Assembly (NCBI GenBank): GCA_021783685.1
Contig: JAJXTQ010000067.1
Span: forward strand, 1-8,372
Direction: 5' to 3'
From: Pseudomonadota bacterium
GTDB lineage: Bacteria; Pseudomonadota; Gammaproteobacteria; UBA5335
DNA length: 8,372 nt
Part shown: positions 1 to 8,372 of the stretch, one piece after another
Layout of the letters: each line of letters begins with the position of its first letter
Numbering within the stretch: the first letter of the stretch is position 1
The notes under the pieces: model-generated
Seen by the model: only the letters and a program-made list of their open reading frames with translations
Told to the model about the DNA's origin: nothing
The model's database searches: none
Translations under genes and position numbers: made by a program

Positions 1-2
1 TC

Positions 3-146
3 GCGGCGCTTAAACGCAACTATCCCGATCTCGACCAGAAGGTGTTCGAGGACGAGTGCCTGGACGTGGGCAACCTGAACCTCGCCTTCCGGGCCGTGAT
101 GCAGGCCTCCCACGTCGAGGAGGCTGCAACGCCGGGGGAAGCCTGA
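3..146 (+). CDS. Tail assembly chaperone, gpG-like, 3' end only
   Basis: The reading frame is open from the window edge and ends at TGA 144-146, giving 47 visible C-terminal residues; the start lies upstream. The residues have the acidic/hydrophobic pattern DLDQKVFEDECLDVGNLN, followed by an alanine-rich tail ending TPGEA. This resembles the C-termini of small tail assembly chaperones of the lambda gpG / GTA g10 type. Such proteins bind the tape measure before tail tube polymerisation. The assignment rests mainly on position: it is followed by a second short ORF in the -1 frame and then by the tape measure gene, the arrangement of lambda G-T-H. With the N-terminal part missing, family membership cannot be confirmed. 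It could be another small tail-completion protein. Confidence 0.55.
   Translation, partial: AALKRNYPDLDQKVFEDECLDVGNLNLAFRAVMQASHVEEAATPGEA
134..140 (+). other. Candidate -1 ribosomal frameshift site between the two chaperone ORFs
   Basis: In the upstream gene's frame this stretch reads G GGG GAA, one sense codon (GCC) before its TGA at 144-146. A -1 slip here would read GGG GGA AGC CTG AGG CCG GTG, leading straight into the downstream ORF, which is in the -1 frame and open from position 14. The P-site codon re-pairs perfectly, but the A-site codon does not, so this is not a canonical X XXY YYZ heptamer such as lambda's GGGAAAG. The geometry (short gene, -1 frame, immediately before the tape measure) is what makes the site plausible. 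Confidence 0.3.
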
Positions 147-151
147 GGCCG

Positions 152-424
152 GTGCCGGTCGATTGGGACGCGGTGTATTGCCTCCTCATCGAGCGCACCG
201 GCTGGACCTGGGACTATGTCGACCACCACATGGATCTGCCGCGCTTTCTCGCGCTGGATCGGTACTGGCGCCGCCACCCGCCGCTGCGCGACATGGTGCA
301 AGCCTATCTCGGCATCAAGCCCCCGCTCGAGCGCGAGACATCGAACCCCTCCACCGGCAATGACCAGGCCGACCTCGACGCATTCATCGAACTCTTCCGG
401 GCCGCAGGCGGGAGCATCGCATGA
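152..424 (+). CDS. Second tail assembly chaperone / gpT-like extension
   Basis: This is a short ORF of about 90 residues ending in TGA 422-424, which overlaps the tape measure ATG at 421. The protein-like part begins near VPVDWDAVYCLLIERTGWTW and continues with a Leu/Tyr/Trp helix and a PP pair (RYWRRHPPLRDM). The W...L...T....L..YW...PP pattern is typical of the short ORF that follows the tail chaperone in lambda-like and GTA-like tail modules. The start is uncertain. GTG at 152 fits where the recognisable sequence begins, but its only nearby purine run (TGAGG, 144-148) is too close to be a good ribosome site. An ATG at 230 would cut the conserved part. The ORF is open in this frame back to 14 and lies -1 relative to the upstream chaperone, so it may instead be translated as a frameshift extension. 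Confidence 0.6.
   Translation: MPVDWDAVYCLLIERTGWTWDYVDHHMDLPRFLALDRYWRRHPPLRDMVQAYLGIKPPLERETSNPSTGNDQADLDAFIELFRAAGGSIA
410..414 (+). promoter_or_regulatory. Shine-Dalgarno site of the tape measure gene
   Basis: GGGAG lies 6 bases upstream of ATG 421, a good Shine-Dalgarno match at good spacing. It supports 421 as the tape measure start even though the preceding ORF overlaps it. Confidence 0.6.
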
Positions 425-2754
425 CCAAAGTCGCTGAACTGCAGATCGAGATCGCGGCCAACGTCGCGCGGCTGACCTCCGACTTCGGACGCGCCAAGGA
501 GGAGGTCAATCGCTCGATGGGCCAAATCCAGCGGACGGTCCGCGAGCAGCTGGATGGTGTCAAGGAATCGCTCAAATCCATGAAGGAGATGGTCGAGGCG
601 ATGGGCATCGCGATGCTCGCCGAGCACCTGGTCGAAGCCGCCAAGAGTGCGGCCGAATTCGGCGACCGGATCGAGCACGCCGCGCAGCAGACGGGGATGA
701 GCACCGAGTCGCTTCAGGGACTCGGTTTTGCCGCCAAGATGTCCGACGTCGACTTCCAGTCCTTGTCGGTCGGGCTCGAACACCTCTCGCGCGCGATGCT
801 GCAGACGCAGCAGGGCTCCTTGCAGTCGGCCTCCGCCTTCCGGTCGGTGGGGCTCTCCGCCCAGCAGCTCCAGAGCATGAGCATGGACGAGGTGCTCGCG
901 AAGGTCGCCGACCGCTTCCACGCCACGCGCGACGGCGCGACCAAGACGGCGCTCGCCATGCAGCTCTTCGGGCGCTCGGGGGCGGAGTTGATCCCGCTCC
1001 TCGACCGAGGATCCGAAGGCATCGACGCCCTCGAGGCGAAGGCGAAGCAGCTCGGCATCGTCATGAGCGAGGAGTCGGTGCGCCAGTCGGCCGCCTTCGC
1101 CGACAAGCTGAAGGAAATCTCGGCCGAAGGCCAGGCGGTCACCCGCAACCTGATGGGGGAACTGATGCCCGCCATGAACCGGATCGTGGATGCCTTCCTC
1201 AAAGGGACATCCGATGGCGGCGTGCTGAAGGAGGTGTTCCGGCAGATGGGGGACGCCGCCGTGTGGATGACCGGCTTCATCGCCAAGCTCGCCGCGACGG
1301 TCGAAGCGCTGGGCAAAACCATCGCCATGGTGGCGGCGGTCGTTTCGCACCCGATGTCCGCCAAATCCATCTTCGAGGCGTGGAAAGAGGATGTCGATGC
1401 GCTGCAGGCCAGGACCAATGCCTTTCTCGCCACGCTCGACACCGCATCCAAAGCCTCGTCGCCATCCGAATCGGAGGGCGCGACCGGCACGGGGACGCTC
1501 GCGGTATTCCGGACGAGCGGGGGTCGCGGCGGCGGGCGTCACCACGGCGCCGCCGAGCGGTCGCACATGGCCGAGTACGAAGCGCGTCTTGCCGAGGCGA
1601 AGGTCTACTACCAGCAGACGAATGATCTGCGGGAGTATTCGAAGGCTCAGGAAATCCGGTACTGGCAGGACATCCTGGAGACGCAGAAGCTCTCCGCCAA
1701 TGACCGGATCGCCATCGAGCGCCGCGTCTCGTCGCTTACGCTCGATCAGATGAAGCAGGATGCCGCCGAGCGCCGCAAGCTCGCGGAGGAAGCCATCCAG
1801 GCGCACCGGGATCAGGCGTTGAATGACGTGGCACTCGACGAGCAGAAGGCGCGCACACAACGCAAATCCGGCCGGATCACCCACGACCAGCTGCTGCAGA
1901 TGCAGCAGAACTTCGAGGACGAGAAATACCGCATCGAGGTCGATGCCCAACAGAAGCGCATCGCGCTGCTGCAGGGCGACCCCAATCACGATCCGGTCGC
2001 GTTGCAGCGCCAGCTCGATCAACTCGCGCAGATCGAGCAGAAGCACGCGCTCGACATGGAAAAGCTCCACACCCAGGCCGCGACCAACGCCGTCGCCGCC
2101 TGGCAGAAGGCCTTCGCCCCCATCACCCAGGCGTTCGACACCACCATCAAGGGCATGATCATGGGCACCACCACCTGGCAGAAGGGGGTGACGCATCTGC
2201 TCGATTCGGTGGTGGCCGAGTTCGTCGGTGCCGGTGTGCGGATGGTGACGCAGTGGGCGGCGAACGAAATGGCCAAGACCGCCGCCACCGTGACGGGCAC
2301 GGCCACGCGCACGGCGGCCGAACAGCAGGCCAGCGCCTCGGGGCTCGCGTCCTCCGCCATGGCGGTCATCAAAGCCATCATGAACGACGCCGCCAAGGTG
2401 TTCTCCGGCGTCTGGGCGGCGCTCTCCGGCATTCCCTATGTGGGGCCGGCGCTCGCTGCGGCATCCGCCCCTGCGGCCATGGCCACCGTCGCGGGGGTGG
2501 CCGGCAGTGTCGCGTCCTCGGCGGGGGGCGCCTGGCAGATTCCCGCAGACCGGTTGAATTTCGTGCACCGCAACGAGACCATCCTGCCCGCCGACAAGGC
2601 GGCCGGCCTTGATCGGCTGATCAACGGGGGCGCAGGCGGCGGCACCGTGCACATCCATGCCCGCAGCGACGCCGACGTGGTGCGGGTAGGCGACCTGCAG
2701 GCGCTCCTGCGGCAGATGGGACGCAACTTTGTGCCGGTGACGCGCTTCCCATGA
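421..2754 (+). CDS. Phage tail tape measure protein
   Basis: This 777-residue protein should run inside the tail tube, set tail length and be ejected during infection. The N-terminus (1-60) is a charged helical segment. The family motif LFGRSGAELIPLL lies at 182-194, as in the TIGR01760-type tape measure core. A Ser/Gly/Thr-rich linker (about 344-382) separates this half from a long charged, Gln-rich helical region (about 383-560), likely coiled coil. An Ala/Gly/Val-rich hydrophobic stretch follows (about 620-702), as expected for a segment interacting with membrane. The end has the common tape-measure tail HRNETILPADKAAGL (716-730), then a Gly-rich turn and a short C-terminal helix. At the usual rule of about 0.15 nm per residue the tail would be roughly 115 nm; this is an estimate. 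The gene has a good ribosome site and ends in an ATGA overlap with the glycosyltransferase gene. The family call is secure; the domain limits are by eye. Confidence 0.93.
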   Translation: MTKVAELQIEIAANVARLTSDFGRAKEEVNRSMGQIQRTVREQLDGVKESLKSMKEMVEAMGIAMLAEHLVEAAKSAAEFGDRIEHAAQQTGMSTESLQGLGFAAKMSDVDFQSLSVGLEHLSRAMLQTQQGSLQSASAFRSVGLSAQQLQSMSMDEVLAKVADRFHATRDGATKTALAMQLFGRSGAELIPLLDRGSEGIDALEAKAKQLGIVMSEESVRQSAAFADKLKEISAEGQAVTRNLMGELMPAMNRIVDAFLKGTSDGGVLKEVFRQMGDAAVWMTGFIAKLAATVEALGKTIAMVAAVVSHPMSAKSIFEAWKEDVDALQARTNAFLATLDTASKASSPSESEGATGTGTLAVFRTSGGRGGGRHHGAAERSHMAEYEARLAEAKVYYQQTNDLREYSKAQEIRYWQDILETQKLSANDRIAIERRVSSLTLDQMKQDAAERRKLAEEAIQAHRDQALNDVALDEQKARTQRKSGRITHDQLLQMQQNFEDEKYRIEVDAQQKRIALLQGDPNHDPVALQRQLDQLAQIEQKHALDMEKLHTQAATNAVAAWQKAFAPITQAFDTTIKGMIMGTTTWQKGVTHLLDSVVAEFVGAGVRMVTQWAANEMAKTAATVTGTATRTAAEQQASASGLASSAMAVIKAIMNDAAKVFSGVWAALSGIPYVGPALAAASAPAAMATVAGVAGSVASSAGGAWQIPADRLNFVHRNETILPADKAAGLDRLINGGAGGGTVHIHARSDADVVRVGDLQALLRQMGRNFVPVTRFP

Positions 2755-3932
2755 ACGTCCTGGCTGCGTGGGAACTGGGCGGCAATTGGGGGCACGTCGC
2801 GCGCGATCTACCCGTGCTGCGCCGCTTGCAGGCGCAAGGCCACGATGTCCGGTACGGGGTGCGGGATGCGACGATCGCGGCTTCCCTGTGTGCATCCATC
2901 GGCATCCATTGTGTCACAGCGCCCCACGGTGCTGCGATCCGGCGGATGCCGCGCGGACTTGCGGGCTACGGGGCCATCCTCTTTGCCGACGGCCTCAATG
3001 ATGCGGCGATGCTGGAGGGGCGGCTCGCCGGCTGGATGCGGCTCTTTGCCGAGCACAGGATCGATGTCCTGCTCGCCGACTACGCGCCCTCGGCGCTCCT
3101 GGCTGCTCGCGTGGCGGGCATTCCGTCCGTGGCGGTGGGCAGCGGATTCGAGATTCCGCCGGATGCGGCGGAACTGCCGTCGTTTCTGGCGGATGCCGAT
3201 CGAGACGCGCCGGCGCGCCGGTTCTCCGAGGACCTGGTGCTCTTCAACGTGAACCGGGTGCTGCGCGCCCTCGGGGCGGCCCCGCTCGAGCGGTTGGCGC
3301 AGGTGTTTCAGGGTGCGCGCAATGTGCTCACCACCGTGGCCGAACTGGACCACTGCGGTGCGCGTGCGGACGCCACCTATGCCGGCCCGTTGCAGGACCT
3401 GCCGGGCGGTGTGGCGGCGAATTGGAAAGGGACGACCGGGCCCCGCGTACTGGTCTATCTGCGCGGAACGGGATCGATCGTCGACCTGGTGCTGCAGGCG
3501 CTGGAGAAAATCGACGCCGAGGTCATCGCGGTGCTGCCGGAGGTGGGACGGCGCCCCGACGTTCGCGCCGAAATCCAGGTGTTCCGGCAGCCGGTGCGCT
3601 TCAATGGTCTGCTGGAATCAGCCGATCTCGTGATCGCCGCAGGAATCGGCGCCGTCACCACCGCGCTGCTCGCCGGGGTTCCGGTGCTCGTGCTGCCGGC
3701 CAACGCCGAGCAGGCGATGTTGGCCCGCAGGGTCACGCAGACGGGCGCCGGAATGTTCGTGGATGGCGGGACGGCGGCAACCGTCCCGGATGCGGTTCAC
3801 CGCCTGCTGAGTGATGCCGCCTACCGAGCTGCCGCCAGGGCACTCGCCGCGAAATACACCGGCCTACGCATGGAATCCGCCGTCCAGACGGTGATCGACG
3901 AAATCCACAACGTTTCATCGCACCATTCATGA
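2751..3932 (+). CDS. GT-B fold glycosyltransferase (GT1/MurG-like) inside the tail operon
   Basis: This 393-residue soluble protein looks like a two-domain GT-B enzyme that moves a sugar from a nucleotide sugar to an unknown acceptor. No signal peptide or membrane segment is seen. The N-domain opens with a beta strand and glycine loop, WELGGNWGHVARDLPVL; H15 sits where GT1 enzymes place the catalytic base. D110 in VLLADYAPSALLAARVAGIP is a candidate partner Asp. The C-domain starts near RVLVYLRGTGS (232-242). It holds the donor-site region LLESADLVIAAGIGAVTTAL (287-306), then LLAGVPVLVLPANAEQ, whose E320-Q321 matches the acidic residue/Gln pair that binds the sugar. The usual His of the GT1 HGG motif is absent; the Ala-Gly there is closer to MurG. 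The gene overlaps both neighbours by 4 bases and has only a weak GGTGA at 2736-2740 upstream, so it is probably translated by coupling to the tape measure. Homologues of this type also occur as chromosomal glycosyltransferase genes. Donor and acceptor are unknown. Confidence 0.82.
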   Translation: MNVLAAWELGGNWGHVARDLPVLRRLQAQGHDVRYGVRDATIAASLCASIGIHCVTAPHGAAIRRMPRGLAGYGAILFADGLNDAAMLEGRLAGWMRLFAEHRIDVLLADYAPSALLAARVAGIPSVAVGSGFEIPPDAAELPSFLADADRDAPARRFSEDLVLFNVNRVLRALGAAPLERLAQVFQGARNVLTTVAELDHCGARADATYAGPLQDLPGGVAANWKGTTGPRVLVYLRGTGSIVDLVLQALEKIDAEVIAVLPEVGRRPDVRAEIQVFRQPVRFNGLLESADLVIAAGIGAVTTALLAGVPVLVLPANAEQAMLARRVTQTGAGMFVDGGTAATVPDAVHRLLSDAAYRAAARALAAKYTGLRMESAVQTVIDEIHNVSSHHS

Positions 3933-4564
3933 GCTTCGCCATCGTCACCCCGCCGCCGCCTCCGGGTTGCGGCAAGGTCTTTCCGACGCTGCCCGGCATC
4001 CAGTGGGGCGTGCAGAAATCGCCGCAGTTCAACACCGCGACCCACCGGGCGGTGTCCGGGTTTGAGGTGCGCGCGGCGCGCATGCAATATCCGCTGTGGA
4101 CCTTCACGCTCTCCTACGAATTCCTGCGCGATGGGGCCTACGCCGAAATCGAGACCCTGATGGGGTTCTTCCTGCAGCAGCGGGGAAGCTTCTCGGCCTT
4201 CTGCTATTCGGATCCGTCGGACAACGCGGTCGTGAACCAGCCGTTCGCCACCGGCGATGGCGTCACCAGCACCTTCCCGCTCACGCGCGCCTACGGCGGC
4301 TTCGTCGAGCCGGTGCAGAACCTGAACGGCACACCGGAGATCTTCGTGGGCGGGGTGCTTCAGGCCTCGACCGCCTTCTCCATCGTCAACGGGATGGTCT
4401 CGTTTGCCACGCCACCTGCCGTCGGTGCCGTGCTCAGCTGGACGGGGTCGTTCTTTTACCGCGTGCGCTTCGTGAACGACCACGCGGACTTCAACCAGTT
4501 CATGTACCAGCTCTACGAACTCAAGCAGATCGCGTTCGTGGGCAGCCCCTTGAACAAGGTGTGA
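3929..4564 (+). CDS. DUF2460 / TIGR02217 distal tail protein (GTA gp12-like)
   Basis: This 211-residue protein probably forms the ring between the tail tube and the hub, as the GTA gp12 homologue does. Support comes from overall architecture. A Pro-rich start is followed by a beta-rich segment, with aromatic-rich PLWTFTLSYEFLR at 55-67. The signature-like FFLQQRGSFSAFCYSDPSDN (80-99) corresponds to the DUF2460 block that usually reads as a Phe-rich run ending in a D-P turn. Then come repeated beta turns (FVEPVQ, IFVGGVLQ, GAVLSWTG) and the C-terminal FYRVRFVNDHADFNQF (176-191), the usual RF.nD region. Length is close to the family norm. The start overlaps the glycosyltransferase stop as ATGA, and no purine-rich ribosome site lies in the 20 bases before it, so translation likely depends on the gene upstream. 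Confidence 0.88.
   Translation: MSFAIVTPPPPPGCGKVFPTLPGIQWGVQKSPQFNTATHRAVSGFEVRAARMQYPLWTFTLSYEFLRDGAYAEIETLMGFFLQQRGSFSAFCYSDPSDNAVVNQPFATGDGVTSTFPLTRAYGGFVEPVQNLNGTPEIFVGGVLQASTAFSIVNGMVSFATPPAVGAVLSWTGSFFYRVRFVNDHADFNQFMYQLYELKQIAFVGSPLNKV
4556..4561 (+). promoter_or_regulatory. Shine-Dalgarno site of the DUF2163 gene
   Basis: AAGGTG lies 4 bases before ATG 4566, inside the last codons of the DUF2460 gene. It supports that start and contrasts with the missing site before 3929. Confidence 0.5.
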
Positions 4565-4565
4565 C

Positions 4566-5483
4566 ATGAAACAAGCCTCCGCGCTTACCCGATCGCTGCT
4601 CGCATCGAACCAGTTGCTCTATGCCGATCTCTACACCATCACGCTCATCTCGGTGGATCCGGGCGCATCACAGGGTGGCTATGGATACGGCTACGGTCCG
4701 CCGGCGCCGACCAGGCTCTACTACACCGACGCCGACCAGAACCTCGTCTACAACGGCAACACCTATCTGTGCACGCATCCGGCGGTGGCGAGATCCGGCA
4801 TCAAGTGCTCGCTGGACCTCTCGGTCGACACGGTGGAGGTGTCGATCTTCGGATCCGCGTCCGATCTCGTGCTGGGCGTGCCGTTTCCGCAGTTCGCCGT
4901 CAACGGCGGCTTCGATGGGGCGACGGTGAGCATCGACCGCTGTTTCATGCCGAGCTACGGCGACACCTCGGCCGGGGTGGTCAATCTCTTCTTCGGCAAC
5001 GTCTCGGAGGTCAAACCTTCGCGCTCGAGTGTCGTGCTGACGGTGAGTTCGCAACTGGAGTTGCTCAATCTCGACATGCCGAGAAACCTGCTCTCGCCCG
5101 GCTGCATCCATGCGCTCTTCGATACCGGATGCACGCTGACCCAGGCCTATTACGCCGAATACGACTGGGTGAGCAGCGGATCGGCCCTCACCATCGACAG
5201 CACCGGCCTCAACATGCCGTCGGGGTATTTCACTCAGGGCACGATGCTCTTCACCTCGGGCGCCAATGCAGGGGCCGCCGCGACCGTCAAGCAGCATACG
5301 CTGGCGAATGGGGTCAACACCTTCGCGCTGATGACGCCCATGAACGCCGCCCCGGCCATCGGGGACAACTTCACCGTCTTCCCCGGCTGCGACAAAACCA
5401 TGGCGACCTGCCAGGCGAAGTTCAACAACCTCGTCCACTTCCGCGGCTGGCCCTTCGTGCCGTCGCCCACGGCGAGCACCTGA
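4566..5483 (+). CDS. DUF2163 / phage BR0599-family tail hub protein (GTA gp13-like)
   Basis: This 305-residue protein probably forms the hub below the distal ring, the role of GTA gp13 and, more distantly, lambda gpL. The N-terminal half has the DUF2163 features: an early helix (SALTRSLLASNQLLYADLYT), then LYYTDADQNLVYNGNTYLCT (51-70) and a beta-rich run with VSIFGSASDLVLG. The C-terminal half ends in the recognisable BR0599 block VFPGCDKTMATCQAKFNN followed by FRGWPFVP (292-299). Four cysteines are arranged in two pairs, C180/C189 and C275/C282, and may bind an iron-sulphur cluster as reported for lambda gpL. An unusual tyrosine/glycine run (QGGYGYGYGPP, 36-46) sits in the N-terminal loop where most relatives have a short turn. 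It follows the DUF2460 gene after 1 base and precedes the peptidase gene by 1 base. Confidence 0.9.
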   Translation: MKQASALTRSLLASNQLLYADLYTITLISVDPGASQGGYGYGYGPPAPTRLYYTDADQNLVYNGNTYLCTHPAVARSGIKCSLDLSVDTVEVSIFGSASDLVLGVPFPQFAVNGGFDGATVSIDRCFMPSYGDTSAGVVNLFFGNVSEVKPSRSSVVLTVSSQLELLNLDMPRNLLSPGCIHALFDTGCTLTQAYYAEYDWVSSGSALTIDSTGLNMPSGYFTQGTMLFTSGANAGAAATVKQHTLANGVNTFALMTPMNAAPAIGDNFTVFPGCDKTMATCQAKFNNLVHFRGWPFVPSPTAST

Positions 5484-5484
5484 G

Positions 5485-5934
5485 ATGAACGGCACGCGAG
5501 AAGACGTCCTGACCGAATTGCAGGAGTGGCTCGGCACGCCCTACCACCATGCCGCCCGCGTCAAGGGTGCGGGCGTGGACTGCCTGATGCTGCTGCTGGA
5601 AGTCTACGGGCGCGCGGGCGTGTTCGCGCGCAGGGGGGTGGAGGTAGCGACCATCCCGATCCCGCGCTATTCCCGCGACATCATGCTCCATCGCAACGAG
5701 GAAACCTACCTCGAGGGCATCCGGCAGTACGCGGCGGAAGTGGCGGAGCCGGCGCCCGGCAACATCGCGCTGTGGAAGTTCGGCCGGATCTACAGCCACG
5801 CGGGCGTCATCACCGCTTGGCCCTTCATCATCCACGCCTACGCCCCGGAGAAGATGGTCGTCATCGGCAACGCCGCGATGGGGGCGCTGGCAGGCCGCCC
5901 GGTGCGCTTCTTCGATCCGTGGGGAATGCCATGA
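5485..5934 (+). CDS. NlpC/P60-family tail-associated cell-wall peptidase (GTA gp14-like)
   Basis: This 149-residue protein is likely a cysteine peptidase that cuts peptidoglycan peptides during DNA entry and sits on the tail tip, like GTA gp14 and the lambda gpK peptidase domain. Visible active-site residues are C33 in GAGVDCLMLLLEVY, H105 in YSHAGVIT and H117 in IIHAY, in the usual Cys-His-His order. The N-terminal LQEWLGTPYHHAARVKGAG carries the W.GTPY...... G.DC pattern of the family. The length is that of a single catalytic domain, with no signal peptide or cell-wall binding domain, as expected for a virion-borne enzyme. Its final codons overlap the tip gene start by 4 bases. A lysis role is less likely because no holin or spanin is adjacent. 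Confidence 0.92.
   Translation: MNGTREDVLTELQEWLGTPYHHAARVKGAGVDCLMLLLEVYGRAGVFARRGVEVATIPIPRYSRDIMLHRNEETYLEGIRQYAAEVAEPAPGNIALWKFGRIYSHAGVITAWPFIIHAYAPEKMVVIGNAAMGALAGRPVRFFDPWGMP
5921..5926 (+). promoter_or_regulatory. Shine-Dalgarno site of the tail-tip gene
   Basis: GGGGAA lies 4 bases before ATG 5931, within the end of the peptidase gene. It supports 5931 as the start; the ATG at 5926 is in the peptidase frame. Confidence 0.5.
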
Positions 5935-8372
5935 GCGGGCTCTTCGGCGGCAACAAGCCCCGGCCCTCGGGCTGGCAGACCCCGGTGCTGGCGGGGCTGC
6001 AGATCCAGAAGACCGGCTACAGCCAACCCGTGCCCATCGTCTACGGCACCGCGCGCGTCTCGCCCACCCTCATGTACTACACCGACTGGCAGGTGCATCC
6101 GCACACCAGTTCGCAGAGTACCGGCGGCGGCAAAGGCGGCGGCGGGGGCGGCTCGATCACGACCACCACCTACACCTATTCGGCCACGGTCTGTTTCCTG
6201 CTGGCCGAAGGCCCGGTTGCGGGGGTGTCGCGCATCTGGCGCAATCATGTGTCCTACGCCAACCCGGCGGCGGTCGGCTTCACGATCTTCCCCGGCAGCT
6301 ATCCGCAGACCCCCTGGGGATACTTGAGCTCCGCGCACCCGACCGAGGCGCTGGGCTACGCCGGCAGCGCCTATGCGGCGTTCGCCAACTATGACCTGGG
6401 AAGCAACGGCTCGCTCGGCAATCACCTCTTCGAGGTCGAGGGCGCCCGGATCGCGGCGGGCACGCAGGACGCCAATCCGGCCGACGTGATCCGCGACTTC
6501 CTCACCAACCCGTACTACGGCGTGCTGTCCGTATTCCCCAACGCCTGGGCGCCGCAGTCGTTCCTGGGTGACCTGACCGCGCTGCGCAACTGGTGCGCAA
6601 ACAATGGGCTCCTCATCAGCCCGGCGGTGGCCACCCAGCGCGCGGCGCACGACTGGATCGCCGACTGGCTGCTGGTGGCCAACGCGGGCGCCTTCTGGTC
6701 GGAGGCCACACTCAAGATCATCCCCTACGGCATGGTCTCCGCCACGCCGGTCTATGACCTCGGAGATGACGATTTCATCGTCAAGGGAAGCGAAGATCCG
6801 GTCGTCGTCACGCGCAAGCGCCGGGCCGACGCCTACAACGACGTCTCGGTGGAATATCTCGACCGCGCCAATGAGTACACGGCCGCCCCCGCGCGGGTGA
6901 CCGACCAATCGGCGATCGAGACCTTCGGCGTGCGCACCAAACCCACCGTCACGTTGCACTCGATCTGCCTGCCCACGGTGGCCCAACAGGTGGCGCAGGC
7001 CATCCTGCTGCGCGAGATCTACATCCTCAACACCTTCCAGTTCAAGCTCTCGCCGCGCTACTGCCTACTCGAACCCATGGACGTGGTGACGATCACCGAC
7101 GCCATGCTGGGGCTCGATCACACACCGGTGTTGATCACGGCCATCGAGGAGGATGCGAGCGGTCTCCTGACCATCACCGCCGAGGAGTTCAACCCGGCGT
7201 TCCATGCGTCGCTCGCCTACGACGCGCAGGCCGCCTCGGGCTACATCCCGAATCTCGGCACCGCACCCACCCAGATGTCAGCCGCGACGATCTTCCTGGC
7301 GCCGCCCGCAGCAACCGCCGGCGGCAACGAGGTCTGGATGGCGGTCGTCAATCTCGACCCGCTGTATGCCGGCTCGCAGATCTACCTGAGCTATGACGAT
7401 GTGAGCTATCAGCCGATCGGGGTGATCTACGGGAATTCGACCGCAGGGGTGACGACCACCAGCCTGGCCCCGGCGCCGTCCGCCTCGCCCGGGGTGCTCG
7501 ACACGGCCAATACCCTGGGCGTCGATCTGTCGGCAAGCAAGGGAACGCTCGCAAGCGTGAACCAGGCTGCGCTCATGACCTACGGCACGCTCTCGCTCGT
7601 GGGCGACGAGTTCCTCGCCTGGCGCGATGCGACGCTCACGGCGACGTCACACTACACGCTGGGCACTCTGCTGCGCGGCCTCTATTACAGCGCCGACCAG
7701 AACCCGGTCGCGGCGGGCGCGCGTTTCGTGCTGTGCGACCAGACGCTGTTTCGCTATCCCTACAACCCAGCCTTGCAGGGCAAGACGCTCTACTTCAAGT
7801 TCGTCGCGTTCAACGCCGGGGCGGTGGCGGTGCAGGACATCGCGCAGGTGCCGGCGGTGGCCTTTCTCGTAGGCCAGCAACTCTCCGTGCCGCCCGCGCC
7901 CACGGGACTCACCGTCGCGCAGAGCGGCAGCACGGTCGATTTCAGCTGGGTCGGATCCATGATCAACAGCGCCCGCTACGAACTGCGCTATGTGCCGCAG
8001 GGCAACGCCGCCAATTGGGATGACGGCGTGCTGATCGCAACCTCCATCACCCAGACCGCCTATGCCTCGGCGCAGGTGCCGCCCGGCGCGTGGATCTTCC
8101 TGCTGGCAGCAGAAGATTCCGGCGGCAATTACTCGGCGGCGGCGGTCTGCGATTTCAGCGTCACGGATACGCTCACCGTGCAGGCCACGCTCGACTGTGG
8201 GCCGCAGTGGCCGGGAACCCTGAGCCATCTGGTCGAGCACTGGACGGGAAAGCTCGTCCCGCAAGGGCAAAACCCGACGATGGATGACGGCTGGGACACC
8301 TTCGATGCACTGGTGGCCAATCCGTATCCCACCTGCTCGTTCACGCCGCAAGCCGTGCTCGACCTGGGATCG
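5931..8372 (+). CDS. Large phage tail-tip / host-contact protein (Phage-tail_3 family), 3' end missing
   Basis: The frame is open from ATG 5931 through the last base, 814 codons without a stop, so the C-terminus lies outside the window. The N-terminus has the tip-protein block GYSQPVPIVYGTARVS, then a glycine linker GGGKGGGGGGS (65-75) and TYTYSATVCFLLAEGPVAGV, a set known from this family. Residues about 279-425 (from DDDFIVKG, through PRYCLLEPMDVVTITD, to EEFNPAFHA) match the Phage-tail_3 domain. Further beta domains include LAWRDATLTATSHYTLGTLL. A fibronectin type III-like domain lies at about 654-744 (PPAPTGLTV to AAAVCDFSV), and another beta module starts after that. The TIM-barrel glycosidase that precedes the Phage-tail_3 domain in Rhodobacter GTA gp15 is not present. 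The protein should cap the tail below the hub and carry the receptor-binding or fibre-attachment region in the unseen part. Confidence 0.92.
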   Translation, partial: MSGLFGGNKPRPSGWQTPVLAGLQIQKTGYSQPVPIVYGTARVSPTLMYYTDWQVHPHTSSQSTGGGKGGGGGGSITTTTYTYSATVCFLLAEGPVAGVSRIWRNHVSYANPAAVGFTIFPGSYPQTPWGYLSSAHPTEALGYAGSAYAAFANYDLGSNGSLGNHLFEVEGARIAAGTQDANPADVIRDFLTNPYYGVLSVFPNAWAPQSFLGDLTALRNWCANNGLLISPAVATQRAAHDWIADWLLVANAGAFWSEATLKIIPYGMVSATPVYDLGDDDFIVKGSEDPVVVTRKRRADAYNDVSVEYLDRANEYTAAPARVTDQSAIETFGVRTKPTVTLHSICLPTVAQQVAQAILLREIYILNTFQFKLSPRYCLLEPMDVVTITDAMLGLDHTPVLITAIEEDASGLLTITAEEFNPAFHASLAYDAQAASGYIPNLGTAPTQMSAATIFLAPPAATAGGNEVWMAVVNLDPLYAGSQIYLSYDDVSYQPIGVIYGNSTAGVTTTSLAPAPSASPGVLDTANTLGVDLSASKGTLASVNQAALMTYGTLSLVGDEFLAWRDATLTATSHYTLGTLLRGLYYSADQNPVAAGARFVLCDQTLFRYPYNPALQGKTLYFKFVAFNAGAVAVQDIAQVPAVAFLVGQQLSVPPAPTGLTVAQSGSTVDFSWVGSMINSARYELRYVPQGNAANWDDGVLIATSITQTAYASAQVPPGAWIFLLAAEDSGGNYSAAAVCDFSVTDTLTVQATLDCGPQWPGTLSHLVEHWTGKLVPQGQNPTMDDGWDTFDALVANPYPTCSFTPQAVLDLGS

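Follow-up and report, generated by a model that had tools for sequence, protein, structure and literature searches.

Why does a phage tail operon carry a glycosyltransferase gene between the genes for its tape measure and its distal tail protein? The question was raised by 8,372 nucleotides of a gammaproteobacterial assembly of the lineage UBA5335 (GCA_021783685.1, contig JAJXTQ010000067.1, positions 1 to 8,372), called the window throughout the text, in which a glycosyltransferase (GT) is encoded at exactly this place. The gene has long been settled in the tail module of a single phage lineage; its product is, judged from sequence, probably an active GT1-type enzyme. The best overall explanation, to which we give an even chance, is that the GT glycosylates a tail protein during assembly. 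The slot of the gene is made up as follows:

421..2754, plus strand: tape measure protein gene, 777 residues, directly 5' of the GT gene (open reading frame; PHROG tape measure, 3.3e-52)
2751..2754, plus strand: ATGA, stop of the tape measure and start of the GT gene (overlap of the reading frames)
2751..3932, plus strand: GT1-like (GT-B) glycosyltransferase gene, 393 residues (open reading frame, family models, fold comparison)
3929..3932, plus strand: ATGA, stop of the GT and start of the DUF2460 gene (overlap of the reading frames)
3929..4564, plus strand: DUF2460 distal tail protein gene, 211 residues (PF09343, 142 bits)

The GT reading frame starts with ATG and has no internal stop, in agreement with the preliminary description of a complete GT-B-type gene with ATGA overlaps on both sides. 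The same description had seen no room for a promoter or terminator of its own. Using simple scans of positions 2400-4200, no promoter-like sites were found (sigma-70/consensus, 0.2 expected) and one terminator-like site (0.7 expected), which lies on the opposite strand, with none on the same strand. With 4-base overlaps on both sides and no such signals, the GT gene was rejected as a moron with its own promoter and terminator.

Recurrence of the gene in this slot is solidly documented. Eight loci with a GT of at least 59% identity and readable DNA were available (window, G001, G057, G103, G058 and the IMG/VR contigs L008, L009 and L010; L012 and L013 are duplicate contigs of G103 and G058), and key junctions were placed by homology rather than by greedy picking of open reading frames. 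The 4-base overlap of GT and DUF2460 was present in all eight, and in the seven loci with visible upstream sequence the GT always followed the tape measure, with a 4-base overlap in five and a 4-base gap in two. Contiguity of tape measure and DUF2460 in related modules, as claimed before, was borne out by the 12 GT-less contigs for which the position of both could be established, some of these contigs being near-duplicates (e.g., L098 and L099): in 10 the two genes are joined within a few bases, and in the other two DUF2460 is fused to a long N-terminal part. The contigs L148-L152 from the hub search, in which no tape measure was matched, stand outside these 12 and outside the 15 GT-less hubs described below. 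DUF2460 was present in 11 of 399 sampled genomes of the order; the four at 85% or more all had the GT in the slot, and the seven at 58% or less gave no GT match at E 1e-30. A protein database search yielded 194 GT relatives, and among the 120 listed 54 clusters reached at least 59% identity, 51 of them spanning at least 384 residues, with the next relative at 42%. In the tree, the 42 aligned phage copies grouped together as a single clade with a support of 0.92 and a long stem. The case of scattered chromosomal homologues with this gene as a lone recent insertion was thereby ruled out, as eight of eight loci hold the gene in the slot and 42 copies form one clade.

Beyond this lineage, none of 83 loci of 42% identity or less carried these phage genes in the flank examined, some flanks being short. 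Comparison of the GT with 50,697 deposited phage records (INPHARED, tblastn) gave no match at E 1e-5 in a collection from which records close to the window may be missing, and megablast of the window against the INPHARED phages gave none either. A literature search, confined to a library of open-access papers, yielded no report of a GT gene in the slot between the tape measure gene and that of the distal tail protein. In the two contigs with fused DUF2460 (L096:994-4713 and L122:10204-13971, the latter on the minus strand) the N-terminal part of about 1,030 residues has an (alpha/alpha)6-barrel fold resembling sugar epimerases, GH76 and GH48; its 24 relatives in the database include some that carry beta-propeller domains. 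Related phages keep differing carbohydrate-active parts at the junction of tape measure and distal tail protein.

The identity of the enzyme was approached via family models and fold comparison. Pfam assigned EryCIII-like_C (59.3 bits, cutoff 31.7) and UDPGT (22.6, cutoff 19.5), while the NCBIfam MGT model remained below its cutoff (56.5 versus 260), hence the GT does not belong to the macrolide subfamily itself. Two Rossmann-like domains of the GT-B type were recognized, and the fold proposed earlier is backed by the predicted model and by solved GT1 structures. Compared to GT1 macrolide and aglycone glycosyltransferases (CalG1, OleI/OleD, GtfD, YjiC), with which it shares 13-25% identity, the phage enzyme is encoded in a tail operon and differs in the diphosphate loop described below. 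The following positions are of functional interest:

2793..2795, plus strand: codon of His15 in a GH motif, conserved throughout the alignment (100 of 100)
3078..3080, plus strand: codon of Asp110, present in 42 of 42 copies of the phage clade and 43 of 58 distant relatives
3438..3848, plus strand: donor (nucleotide-sugar) domain, residues 230-366, with boundaries set by us
3708..3713, plus strand: Glu320-Gln321 (EQ motif), Glu in 100 and Gln in 95 of 100 sequences

By comparison with GT1 enzymes we take His15 to be the candidate catalytic base and Asp110 its acidic partner, and the EQ motif is presumed to contact the donor sugar. The sequence thus appears to hold the N-terminal catalytic histidine and its acidic partner. 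The usual histidine of the HGG-type diphosphate loop is absent: position 297 is Ser in 33 and Ala in 9 of the 42 phage copies, and His in 9 of the 58 distant relatives. MurG-like diphosphate loops likewise do without it. Most phage copies read G-S-G-T here, and the window reads AAGIGA, with Ile299 and Ala301 (3645-3653) at positions where most copies have Ser and Thr.

The ratio of nonsynonymous to synonymous substitution rates (dN/dS), determined in five pairwise comparisons, was 0.28-0.43 for the GT, 0.10-0.23 for tape measure, DUF2460 and hub, and 0.10-0.38 for NlpC. Divergence of the GT was the highest or among the highest of the module genes in several pairs. Between L009 and L121, identity is 98% for the tape measure, 96% for DUF2460 and 68% for the GT, with a dS of 0.05, 0.16 and 0.68, respectively, and of 0.82 in the hub. 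Within the gene, bases of the window and G001 were 71-79% identical in the donor domain and 84-97% in the surrounding blocks; the donor domain of the window was 66% identical to the copy of the nearest genome compared, with 91% before and 89% after it; and the database entries P0003 and P0011 were 100% identical in the N-terminal part and 70% in the donor part. Trees of the two parts were in conflict (log-likelihood differences of 656/650, versus 155/114 for one random split), also for the distant relatives (171/149 versus 83/40). Along the GT the correlation curve did not drop at the domain boundary; for 131 distant pairs of at least 55% the spread of the N-terminal minus donor identity was the same (standard deviation 0.066 versus 0.064). 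For these two reasons the exchange of donor domains as a rule was dropped and only the term mosaic alleles was kept: the GT alleles are mosaic, and these tests gave no sign that their breakpoints prefer the domain border.

Which protein might be glycosylated? To find group-specific blocks of at least 6 columns, five tail proteins were compared between the GT group and GT-less phages. The sole insertion of the GT group was a Gly/Tyr-rich hairpin in the N-terminal attachment domain of the hub, found in 10 of 10 hubs versus 0 of 15 GT-less hubs, which include near-duplicates; for L094 and L105, which belong to the ten, the contig starts inside DUF2460, so that the GT is out of sight. Two blocks missing from the GT group, in the tape measure near residue 758 and in the megatron near 269, were rejected as GT-linked, because L096 and L122, the GT-less phages closest to the group, lack them as well, so that they do not track the GT.

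4566..5483, plus strand: baseplate hub protein gene, 305 residues (Phage-tail_3, Rcc01698_C; relative of the RcGTA hub, PDB 6tba chain 7A)
4653..4709, plus strand: Gly/Tyr-rich hairpin loop inserted in the hub, about residues 30-48, candidate glycan acceptor

Among 120 listed database hubs the 18 with at least 77% identity all carried the loop, recognized by pattern in 17 and by eye in P0136; the remaining 102 gave no match to the loop pattern, most of them without inspection by eye. In six cases a GT entry and a hub entry agreed in the size and source of their longest contig (57400, 40138, 37306, 7534, 4035 and 4168), which suggests that they come from shared contigs; equal sizes also occurred at doubtful kinship (4533 and 14339). 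Distances of the GT correlated with those of the hub at r = 0.90, followed by megatron (0.82), NlpC (0.75), DUF2460 (0.68) and tape measure (0.37), using 7 or 8 taxa. The attachment domain of the RcGTA hub binds the distal tail protein, and several RcGTA tail parts have oligosaccharide-binding folds, according to PMC7296036.

The same enzyme family occurs in chromosomes, mainly of beta- and gammaproteobacteria, as glycosyltransferases with the motif AWELGxNxGHLxR of about 29-42% identity. The best 78 of 179 such relatives (L014-L091) and a second sample (L173-L190; n = 16 after removal of two contigs already in the first, 94 pooled) were compared with 20 control windows from seven genomes, six with chromosomal relatives and the seventh G001. 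An RTX giant, an HlyD adaptor or an autotransporter was encoded within about 8 kb at 43 of these 78 loci versus 0 of 20 controls (p = 1.6e-6), and at 46 of the 94 pooled loci; HlyD was the next gene downstream at 17 of the 78. A Pfam check of nine neighbouring proteins left two without a match. In contrast to the phage GT, these relatives are chromosomal and often lie beside such secretion genes, and this neighbourhood points to glycosylation of proteins in the cytoplasm before export as the likely ancestral trade. The sister family may perhaps represent an undescribed glycosylation system for secreted proteins; a limited literature search found no experimental work on it.

Taken together, the GT would be co-produced with the tail proteins through translational coupling and would move a sugar from a cytoplasmic nucleotide-sugar to one of these proteins, either while the baseplate is being assembled or ahead of it. 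As acceptor, the hub hairpin is the foremost candidate, at a tyrosine or an adjacent serine. From the gene and its operon, the predicted fold, the retained active-site residues, the recurrence in a single slot and the group-specific loop, we infer catalysis, a protein acceptor, the hub loop as its site and a benefit in adsorption or protection. Glycosylation of a tail or tip protein, the role ranked first in the preliminary description, gained indirect support from the hub loop and from the secretion neighbours of the relatives. That the substrate is a virion protein appears about evenly balanced, and the hub loop as the specific acceptor is a tentative assignment that we consider rather doubtful. 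More speculative still, and unlikely on balance, is a two-part arrangement in which the GT1 enzyme would O-glycosylate a dedicated hub loop and allele exchange would change the sugar and leave the tail unchanged; some pairs would then exchange the donor domain alone, resembling serotype switching of the virion. If a tail protein is indeed glycosylated, tail glycosylation would be a built-in step of virus assembly, a tail-operon GT with a concrete acceptor candidate in proteobacterial phages would make it directly testable, and the large chromosomal sister family would come into view as enzymes that possibly glycosylate giant secreted proteins.

We are aware of several observations which weigh against glycosylation of a tail protein or of its hub loop. 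The main one is that GT and loop occur together in one clade only, which makes this a single evolutionary coincidence; four of the ten loop hubs (L008, L009, L094, L105) come from one metagenome. Without L010 and L121 the correlation of GT and hub distances was 0.72 versus 0.70 for DUF2460. The loop-bearing hub P0139 and P0064, a GT of 37% identity, both have a longest contig of 14339. As a further part of the main weakness, at least 119 viral loci outside this lineage's own contigs contained GGYGGYG-coding DNA (109 in an open frame) and none had this GT nearby, so Gly/Tyr tracts as a general partner of the GT found no support among the matches listed. Beside the chromosomal relatives GGY tracts were scarce (2 of 302 near versus 0 of 697 farther, p = 0.09), too weak to be used as support. 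Secretion neighbours in the second sample alone amounted to 3 of 16 (p = 0.08), and type I ABC transporters taken by themselves showed no enrichment (18 of 78 and 8 of 18 versus 6 of 20). Ile299 and Ala301 could, judged by the alignment, weaken the enzyme of the window. Finally, the solved enzymes nearest to the GT, natural-product glycosyltransferases, use small molecules.

This last point favours a different substrate, namely a small molecule, a nucleotide or a DNA base, e.g., for counter-defence, with the tail operon setting the timing only. The top viral fold match, a baculovirus ecdysteroid glucosyltransferase, and a 32% relative on a 292-kb viral contig (L011:8001-9161), with 8-kb flanks that lack the genes of this tail module, fit this explanation. 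The stable position of the gene, with a tail gene on either side, and the ties of the chromosomal relatives to secreted proteins speak against it, and a defence library gave no match, which is not decisive; we regard it as quite unlikely. Specific support for the DNA-base role, already rated low before, was not found. Somewhat more weight, still well on the unlikely side, is given to a GT that alters a glycan or lipid of the host surface late in infection and stops adsorption of progeny or rivals to the dying cell. A late tail operon implies late expression, serotype-changing phage GTs are known (PMC12619734), and four distant relatives (L014, L004, L015, L035) adjoin another glycosyltransferase, as found by a neighbour clustering that omitted 14 loci; the counts of secretion neighbours given above are independent of this clustering. 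However, no promoter-like site for separate expression in a lysogen was found, the recurrent neighbours of the relatives are more often protein-secretion genes than other GTs, and the hub loop would be left unexplained.

Lower chances are given to two further explanations. A structural or chaperone part in tail assembly, without catalysis, would suit the position of the gene, flanked by those for tape measure and distal tail protein, as well as the divergent donor loop of the window. Retention of the active-site residues in 42 of 42 phage copies and purifying selection (dN/dS as given above) make a purely structural role improbable, as the earlier ranking had it, and the ten GT-less contigs hold both flanking genes adjacent without it. 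Least probable of all, and hardly to be expected, is a passenger without benefit kept by chance in one lineage: high divergence and mosaic alleles are compatible with it, but purifying selection, the fixed slot and the spread over at least 54 database clusters disagree.

To our knowledge, the documented cases of glycosylated phage virions come mainly from mycobacteriophages. For Che8, Rita and others, phage GTs were proposed or reported to glycosylate virion proteins, with glycans on capsid and tail tube, compared to the hub as candidate site here (PMC12619734, PMC11256854). The GTs of Maravista are encoded close to its 3' genome end (PMC11256854), in contrast to the coupling between tape measure and distal tail protein genes observed here. 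With the tail module of RcGTA (g11-g15; gene names partly from PMC7296036) the window shares tape measure, DUF2460, hub, NlpC peptidase and megatron in the same order; the difference, a GT in the interval and the Gly/Tyr hub loop, holds for the tested GT-less phages of this type, RcGTA itself being outside the alignment over the loop.

The remaining genes of the window complete the order G0, tape measure, GT, DUF2460, baseplate hub, NlpC/P60 peptidase, megatron-like:

56-424: G0 gene (list of open reading frames)
5485..5934, plus strand: NlpC/P60-type tail peptidase gene (family models)
5931..8372, plus strand: megatron-type baseplate protein gene, continuing past the end of the window (family models)

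Neighbouring genes also overlap by ATGA at 421-424 and 5931-5934. DUF2460, hub, NlpC and megatron following the tape measure in this order identify the module as RcGTA-type; of the NCBIfam models, TIGR02218 (hub) was above cutoff, and TIGR02217, TIGR02219 and GTA_megatron matched below theirs. An open frame of 863 residues antisense to the tape measure (304-2895, minus strand) looks like an artefact of high GC content. Tape measures fall into two classes of 47-50% identity, which move with G0 and the tail tube gene; DUF2460 and hub are at least 74% alike across both classes (window, L008-L010, L118, L120, L121). Several relatives carry additional genes in the module: two small genes between DUF2460 and hub in L010 (6272-6804, minus strand), by eye a toxin-antitoxin-like pair; another pair of this appearance among small genes between G0 and tape measure in L123 (6674-7317, minus strand); and, in L120 (9144-12258), an insertion of about 3.3 kb that separates DUF2460 from the hub and holds genes of which some have, by eye, signal-peptide-like starts.
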